Shown: piece by piece, positions 59,201 to 61,233 of the stretch | How positions within the stretch are numbered: position 1 is the first letter of the stretch | Layout of the letters: the number at the start of each line of letters is the position of its first letter | Assembly (NCBI RefSeq): GCF_000724625.1 | Contig: NZ_CP007139.1 | Location: forward strand, 1,922,001 to 1,986,000 | DNA: 64,000 nucleotides | Source: Fimbriimonas ginsengisoli Gsoil 348 | GTDB taxonomy: Bacteria; Armatimonadota; Fimbriimonadia; Fimbriimonadales; Fimbriimonadaceae | Direction: 5' to 3' | The notes under the pieces: generated by a model | What the model saw: the letters and a program-made list of their open reading frames with translations, nothing else | The model's database searches: none | Told to the model about the DNA's origin: nothing | Program-made: the position numbers and the translations under genes

Positions 59201-60475
59201 ATGCTCGACCGCGACCTGATCCGACGCCATCCCGACGCCGTTCGCCTGGGAATCTCCCGCAAAGGGATCGATGCCTCGATCGTGGATCGCTTCCTTGAAA
59301 TCGACGCCGAATATCGGCGCGTAAAGACGGAGACGGGCGAGTTGCAGGCTGAATCGAACCGGGTGAGCAAGTCGATCGGCCAGCTAATGGCGCAAGGAAA
59401 GCGGGACGATGCGGAGGCCGCGAAGGCTCGAGCCAAGGAGCTCAAAGACGCCGCGACGGTGGGGGAAACAAGGGAGAAAGAGCTCGAAACGGCGATGCGG
59501 GAGGTGGAGCTGGAGTTCCCCAACCTGCCTCACGAGTCGGTTCCGAATGGACGCGATGAGACCGAAAATGTTGTCGTGCGAATGTGGGGCGAAAGGCCCA
59601 CCTATGCCGAAGCGCCGCAGCCTCACTGGGATGTGGCGGACCGGCTAGGACTCGTCGACCTGGCCCGGGGCGCAAAGATCACCGGGAGCGGATTCGTGGT
59701 GTACACCGGCTGGGGAGCTCGTCTGCAAAGGGCGCTCTTCACGTTCATGCTGGATGTCCAAACCCAAAAGAACGGGTACCGGGAGATCTATCCGCCCTAT
59801 GTCGTCAACCGGGCAAGCCTAATCGGAACCGGAAATCTACCGAAATTCGAAGAAGATCTATACCGAACGACCGACGATCTCTTCCTGATCCCAACCGCCG
59901 AGGTGCCGCTTACCAATCTTTACCGGGACGAAATCCTGGATAACGACCAACTGACGGTCAAGTTGGCCGGGTATTCCAGTTGCTTCCGACGCGAAGCCGG
60001 CGCGGCGGGCAAGGACACCCGTGGCATTCAGAGGATTCACCAGTTCGACAAGGTCGAGCTAGTGAAGTTCTGCCGGCCGGAAGAGAGCTATGACGAGTTG
60101 GAGACGCTGGTCGCCGATGCCGAAAGCGTTTTGCAGGCCCTCGGAATCCACTATCGAATCGTAGAGCTTTGCGCCGGAGATCTTGGCGCAAAGGGGTGTA
60201 AGTGCTACGACCTCGAGCTCTGGTCTCCCGCGATGGATAAGTACCTGGAAATCTCGAGCTGCACCAATTTCGAGGCGTACCAAGCGCGCCGCGCGAATAT
60301 CAAATTCCGCCGAGCGCAGGGAGAGAAGCCGGAGTTCGTGCACATCCTAAACGGCAGCGGCCTCGCCCTACCCCGCCTCTTCGCCTCCATCCTCGAAACG
60401 TTCCAGCAGCCCGACGGCTCCCTCCTCGTCCCGGAGGCTTTGCGTCCGTACGTCGGCACGGAGTTCATCAGGTAG
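59201..60475 (+). CDS. serS: Serine--tRNA ligase
   Basis: 424 residues, class II synthetase for tRNA-Ser. N-terminal coiled-coil tRNA arm (about 30-110), then catalytic core with motif 2 ([19 protein letters not shown]) and motif 3 ([17 protein letters not shown]). Length is normal. The stop codon TAG is part of the left 49-bp repeat of the adjacent transposase element. A TAAACT box lies six bases before the ATG. Confidence 0.97.
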
Positions 60476-60520
60476 CGTCGGCGTCTTCGTAGCGTCGGCG
60501 CCCCCGCCGATGCCTCCGGA
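60472..60520 (+). repeat. Left 49-bp inverted repeat (REP pair)
   Basis: Identical to the reverse complement of 61185-61233. It begins with GTAGCGTCGG; its TAG is the stop codon of serS. Confidence 0.95.
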
Positions 60521-60529
60521 GATCCTCAT

Positions 60530-61165
60530 CTATTCCGGCATCCCAAGCCACGGAACGCCATCAAGGGGAAAGGGGGCACTACCACACCGAGCCTTTTCAG
60601 CGAGATTCCCCTTATGCGGATTGGCCAACGTGTAGCCCACAAACCGCTCCAGGTCCGTTTGCGTCCGAACGATATGGTCGAACGATTCCTTCTGCCATAC
60701 GGGTCCGCGGCGACAGAGGGCTTCGTTTATTCGGTGCGCAGTGACAGACTTCCACTGCTGTACAACCTCCGACAGGTCGATGTCCGCATTCGGGCGGACC
60801 ACAGAGTGAACATGGTTCGGCATGATTGCGTAAGCATGCAGCTCGTAATTAGGTGCCTTTAAGAGGCATTCCTCAACGATTTTCGAACAAGTGTCGTGTC
60901 GAAGAAGGCATTCGCCATGGCCTTGATCGAGGTATTTCTCGACCCGTCCTATGATCCTGCGCTTCATGGCAGCCAACTCGACCCTCGTCGGTTGTCGCGC
61001 CTGAGCGGCAACAAATCGTTCGACCTCGTCGTGCCAGTCAGATCTATAGGCTTCGACCACCGACTCTGGAAGGGAATCGCCGAGGCGGAAAGTTACGAAG
61101 TAAATCGCACCTGGCAGGCGCCAGTGCGGAAGCCTCGAACCTTGTCTCTTTTCGAGCGAAGGCAT
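60530..61165 (-). CDS. REP-associated tyrosine transposase (RAYT, Y1_Tnp)
   Basis: 211 residues. Single-strand transposase of the HUH/IS200 superfamily: the HUH motif is AIMPNHVHSVV near residue 115, and a Tyr in RFVGYTLANPHKGNL near residue 178 is the candidate catalytic residue. The N-terminus RLPHWRLPGAIYFVTFRL is typical. It cleaves and rejoins REP sequences with a GTAG head. A TAGCAT box lies six bases before the ATG. It lies within the inverted repeats at 60472-60520 and 61185-61233. Confidence 0.9.
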   Translation of the reverse strand: MPSLEKRQGSRLPHWRLPGAIYFVTFRLGDSLPESVVEAYRSDWHDEVERFVAAQARQPTRVELAAMKRRIIGRVEKYLDQGHGECLLRHDTCSKIVEECLLKAPNYELHAYAIMPNHVHSVVRPNADIDLSEVVQQWKSVTAHRINEALCRRGPVWQKESFDHIVRTQTDLERFVGYTLANPHKGNLAEKARCGSAPFPLDGVPWLGMPE

Positions 61166-61184
61166 TTGGCGATGCTACAACTTT

Positions 61185-61233
61185 TCCGGAGGCATCGGCG
61201 GGGGCGCCGACGCTACGAAGACGCCGACGCTAC
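61185..61233 (-). repeat. Right 49-bp inverted repeat (REP pair)
   Basis: Perfect inverted copy of 60472-60520, starting 19 bases upstream of the transposase start codon. Confidence 0.95.

Follow-up and report, generated by a model that had tools for sequence, protein, structure and literature searches.

A probable REPtron at the end of serS in Fimbriimonas ginsengisoli Gsoil 348, and the position of GTAG REPs relative to stop codons

The cassette that follows serS in Fimbriimonas ginsengisoli Gsoil 348 is very probably a REPtron, with a RAYT gene enclosed by two inverted REPs. The term REPtron is used by Di Nocera et al. 2013 (PMC3733652) and by Corneloup et al. 2021 (PMC8266576). The cassette lies in a window of 64,000 nucleotides, which is the whole stretch of DNA that was analysed, and positions are those of this window unless they are called genome positions; the genome is a single contig of 5,231,762 bp. 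The features of the region are as follows.

serS, 59201 to 60475, forward strand: seryl-tRNA synthetase, 424 aa, with its stop codon TAG at 60473 to 60475 inside the left arm
Left arm, 60472 to 60520, forward strand: 49 bp, a partial REP head and a complete GTAG REP, with the head outwards, towards serS
Complete REP hairpin of the left arm, 60489 to 60512, forward strand: GTAG and CGTCGGCG-CCCC-CGCCGATG, with one G.T pair
RAYT (TnpA_REP) gene, 60530 to 61165, reverse strand: intact ORF of 211 aa, HUH motif at residues 118 to 120, Tyr 178 expected to be catalytic
Right arm, 61185 to 61233, reverse strand: 49 bp, exact inverted copy of the left arm, 19 bp upstream of the RAYT start codon

The arms and the transposase gene

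A search of the window for inverted repeats returned the arms at 60472 to 60520 and 61185 to 61233 as two sequences of 49 nt that are 100% complementary and 664 nt apart, and the original prediction of two arms identical over 49 bases with GTAG heads was therefore exact to the base. Chance cannot account for two 49-mers that are identical in inverted orientation. Within each arm, a 17-nt partial head, GTAGCGTCGGCGTCTTC, comes first and then a complete REP with the structure GTAG-CGTCGGCG-CCCC-CGCCGATG-CCTCCGGA, in which the GTAG directly abuts the 8-bp stem. The partial head is restricted to the two arms within the 1.2 Mb sampled, and a count of the full 49-mer, which the prediction had proposed as a check, gave two copies in the genome, namely both arms. 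That the arms are identical, the 17-nt head included, would be best explained by copying between them or by a single origin. CT dinucleotides stand on both sides of the complete REP (TCTTC-GTAG and GATG-CCT), a placement compatible with the cleavage at CT and CA, with a guide role of GTAG, that was reported by Corneloup et al. 2021 (PMC8266576).

Just upstream of the RAYT gene, between its start codon and the right arm (window 61165 to 61184), lies GTAGCATCGCC, which matches the head and the first half of the stem of a minor REP subtype. This 11-mer occurs in 5 copies in the 1.2-Mb sample versus 1 for the reversed control; it could be the remnant of a REP or a putative binding site.

Judged from its sequence, the product of the 211-aa reading frame is an intact, divergent RAYT. 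It shows the Y1_Tnp (IS200-like) domain (Pfam PF01797, E 5.3e-9, above the gathering score) together with an HUH motif and the expected catalytic tyrosine, since HVH (118 to 120) and Y178 (within YTLANP) fall at the HUH and tyrosine positions when the protein is aligned with most paralogs and with TnpA_REP 4ER8, its single PDB match (E 2.4e-5). The NCBIfam model REP_Tyr_transpos (NF047646) matches it with E 1.5e-19 and 70.3 bits, far above the 24.6 bits of the IS200 model. We call this RAYT divergent because the NCBIfam score is under the equivalog cut-off of 80 bits, which is a curation threshold and not a biological defining trait. The RAYT identity given in the original prediction is thus backed by Pfam, NCBIfam and PDB matches and by the aligned motifs.

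Five RAYTs are present in the genome, the one beside serS and four others (36 to 47% identical); the serS-side gene is single copy, its next paralog being 47% identical. Four of the five have their own perfect flanking inverted repeats, of 49, 29, 33 and 23 bp, and flanking arms are absent at the one at genome position 2556730. Perfect identity of the arms had been regarded as unusual, but the 29-bp and 33-bp arms of other RAYTs here are perfect as well. Neither is the inverted layout special, since flanking inverted REPs are the defining layout of these genes: according to Nunvar et al. 2010 (PMC2817692), RAYTs are always flanked by two inverted REPs and are in general single copy.

The REP family and the history of the serS site

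The core of the arm, GTAG plus the 8-bp hairpin, belongs to a genome-wide REP family. The 12-mer GTAGCGTCGGCG has 128 exact copies in the genome, 64 on each strand, versus 0 for the reversed control, and only 0 to 3 copies in each of 19 congeners; the REP and the RAYT are co-restricted to this genome. REP statistics were taken from a 1.2-Mb sample, made up of 0.8 Mb of contiguous sequence around the window and of stretches mostly around REPs, in which the densities of the 75 complete REPs are biased and their positions relative to genes were not chosen. In this sample the main stems are CGTCGGCG/CGCCGATG (n=45) and CATCGGCT/AGCCGATG (n=23), while CATCGCCT/AGGCGATG, CATCGGCA/TGCCGATG, CACGGGCK/MGCCCGTG and CACTGGCA/TGCCAGTG are rarer. 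The changes between these stem subtypes are compensatory, so pairing in the hairpin is constrained; a GTAG head followed by such a constrained palindrome is what characterizes a GTAG REP. Folded as DNA, the 32-nt REP gives a z of -3.4. The REPs that flank the RAYT thus come from an abundant family dispersed in the same genome, as they do in a REPtron. Most sampled REPs are single and pairs are a minority; head-out pairs with no gene between them are 26 to 174 bp apart (for example at genome positions 2460602 and 2460676, 75 bp).

GTAGCGTCGGCG is also repeated in a distant genus of the same order (20 copies in genome G031, 6 in genome G029), in which RAYT matches are only weak and a similar REP may exist. 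Across the genome of F. ginsengisoli, another palindromic repeat family, distinct from the REPs and of the form CCGCAGGTTGGCTCGTACCTGCG ... CGCAGGTACGAGCCAACCTGCGG, is often found around or behind a GTAG REP, and the two then make up composites of about 100 bp (for example near genome positions 26467, 3131661 and 4279170). The CGCAGGTACG repeat family, considered because it might supply paralogous empty sites, was rejected, its interiors being too variable.

The serS region was compared with 43 relative loci, for most of which about 1 to 6 kb of downstream sequence was available. Within this sequence, both RAYT and hsp20 are absent downstream of serS at all 43 loci, and the unit is therefore lineage-specific and not an ancient fixed structure, for which conservation of the arrangement in distant relatives had been named as the telling sign. 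The further suggestion that a mobile unit had been caught in place is not supported, given that the RAYT is single copy, the 49-mer has no copies besides the arms, and none of the 43 relative loci offers an alignable empty site. In every relative a different gene follows serS, which makes the boundary of the insertion unreadable.

REPs at stop codons and competing explanations

The 3' end of serS reads ...ATC AGG TAG, with the GTAG of the left arm at 60472 to 60475. The TAG is supplied by this GTAG, in agreement with the original claims that the stop codon lies within the repeat and that the end of the host gene is reused; it belongs to the 17-nt partial head and not to the complete REP. Orthologs of serS from Fimbriimonadaceae and other Armatimonadota are 49 to 75% identical over the full length, and the C-terminus of SerS is 0 to 2 aa short of its closest orthologs.

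This use of the REP is not confined to serS. The TAG of the REP is the stop of a coding-like ORF for 10 of the 75 sampled REPs, and others start shortly after a stop (24 at 1 to 20 nt, 4 at 21 to 40 and 6 at 41 to 100), which places 34 of the 75 at 0 to 20 nt from a stop codon. In the 1.2-Mb sample 13 coding-like ORFs extend into a REP, and 10 of them do so in the frame of the TAG (binomial p ~0.002, with one third expected).

For six genes with a REP-supplied stop, serS and five others, the end of the protein was compared with that of its orthologs. The stop lies within 0 to 2 codons of the orthologs' end in five of the six and 3 to 6 codons away in one. XylA has 437 aa here and in 5 of 6 close orthologs, the GNAT gene product has the 311 aa of its four nearest orthologs, the GlnQ-like protein has 243 aa versus 242, and the end of the FecCD permease is an exact match to the four nearest orthologs; the creatininase-like protein is 3 to 6 residues longer than its orthologs. 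REP-supplied stops are thus found at the orthologs' own ends, and the REPs therefore sit on old gene ends without truncation, suggesting that stop codons may be safe landing places for REPs and not lesions.

How the REPs came to these ends can be read in two ways. With a probability somewhat short of even, REPs insert at random into genes and only those cases survive in which a TAG falls in frame; selection would then favour the TAG frame, so that 10 of 13 is expected here too. However, survival alone should leave genes a few codons short, whereas the REP TAG is 0 to 2 codons from the stop of the closest orthologs in serS, xylA and the GNAT, glnQ-like and fecCD-like genes, and exactly on that of the nearest orthologs in xylA, GNAT and fecCD; even the sole outlier, the creatininase-like gene at 3 to 6 codons, has the longer protein. 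The other reading, which we put forward tentatively and with considerable doubt, is that GTAG REPs land on existing stops, with the host TAG as target or microhomology, and that the RAYT cassettes of serS and gmk took this route. If the stop-landing reading is true, REPs can enter at gene ends without shortening the protein.

Four REPs (genome positions 4259124, 3144499, 106584 and 1076274) read TAGTAG, with the stop TAG directly before the second TAG and the G of the stop forming the G of the REP's GTAG; this may be a record of insertion at a stop codon. A second RAYT unit (genome position 2041513; region 2040013 to 2043579) has 29-bp perfect arms, CGTGGCGCCGGCTTCCAGCCGGTAGCCCA, and begins immediately behind the TAG that ends gmk (guanylate kinase). 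Two RAYT units of the genome thus abut the stop of an essential gene.

The crowding of REPs just downstream of genes, where the 34 of 75 at 0 to 20 nt from a stop are found, could also mean that the arms are mainly host regulatory, forming a bidirectional terminator or a 3'-end mRNA hairpin for serS and the RAYT gene, and that the transposase is incidental. E. coli REPs no more than 15 nt from a stop were reported to lower translation, as cited in PMC12306157. We consider this explanation improbable, as it explains neither why there is a right arm ahead of the RAYT start nor why each RAYT is matched by an arm type of its own, and the complete hairpin at serS begins 17 nt past the stop, just beyond the reported range; a regulatory side effect of the arms is compatible with the REPtron reading. 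That the cassette is a conventional IS (TIRtron/IS-like), the arms being its 49-bp terminal inverted repeats and not REPs, is most improbable: the arms are perfect, long and inverted and the 49-bp unit is unique to the element, but the transposase is of the Y1 HUH type and not DDE, the element is single copy, with one gene and one pair of 49-mers in place of multiple complete copies, and the simple form of this explanation is refuted by the dispersed REPs, since the arm core belongs to a family with 128 exact 12-mers, nearly all without a transposase.

Proposed mode of action and relation to known systems

Taken as a REPtron, the serS-side cassette encodes a RAYT of the Y1 HUH single-strand type. 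To judge from TnpA_REP of E. coli, Stenotrophomonas and Marinomonas, this protein may bind its cognate REP, GTAG plus hairpin, as a folded single strand, would probably cut at CT or CA dinucleotides picked by the GTAG guide, and could in this way disperse single REPs or pairs of them in the genome. The two arms would be founder or cognate REPs, either copied one from the other or homogenised after the unit had formed. The unit would have settled on the end of serS with its GTAG in place of the stop codon, and it may be tolerated beside an essential gene because this replacement leaves the enzyme at its full length.

Every element of the cassette is already known from other bacteria. As in published REPtrons, two inverted REPs with their GTAG heads outwards enclose a Y1 HUH transposase gene, the REPs are dispersed through the genome, and the REP class is confined to the genome that has the cognate RAYT. 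Unlike in those REPtrons, the arms of the cassette have an extra 17-nt partial head and are identical over 49 bp, and its host phylum, Armatimonadota, is missing from the list of Proteobacteria, Cyanobacteria, Chloroflexi and the PVC group given for GTAG REPs by Di Nocera et al. 2013 (PMC3733652). RAYTs went unmentioned among the matches listed by a literature search on Armatimonadetes and Fimbriimonas, and a REPtron in the Armatimonadota seems not to have been described previously. REPtrons and GTAG REPs are here extended to a lineage outside the published census.

The REPs share with Group 3 REPs (Stenotrophomonas Sm and Marinomonas Mb; PMC8266576) a GTAG and a perfect short palindrome with no E. 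coli bulge, a likeness of features; here, unlike in Group 3, the GTAG directly abuts the 8-bp stem. The RAYT is distantly related to the E. coli protein, as the E of 2.4e-5 for 4ER8 indicates. The head-out REP pairs, which are likely the non-autonomous unit here, recall the REPIN of Bertels and Rainey 2011 (PMC3116915), although they are a minority and most sampled REPs are single. GTAG termini often give a TAG stop to flanking ORFs, according to the available part of Di Nocera et al. 2013 (PMC3733652), in which we found no ortholog test of such stops; in F. ginsengisoli, by comparison, the stop falls on the orthologs' own end, within 0 to 2 codons in five of six genes. The only part that goes beyond the textbook is this agreement of REP-supplied stops with orthologous stops in six genes, and it provides a clean test of how REPs choose their sites.
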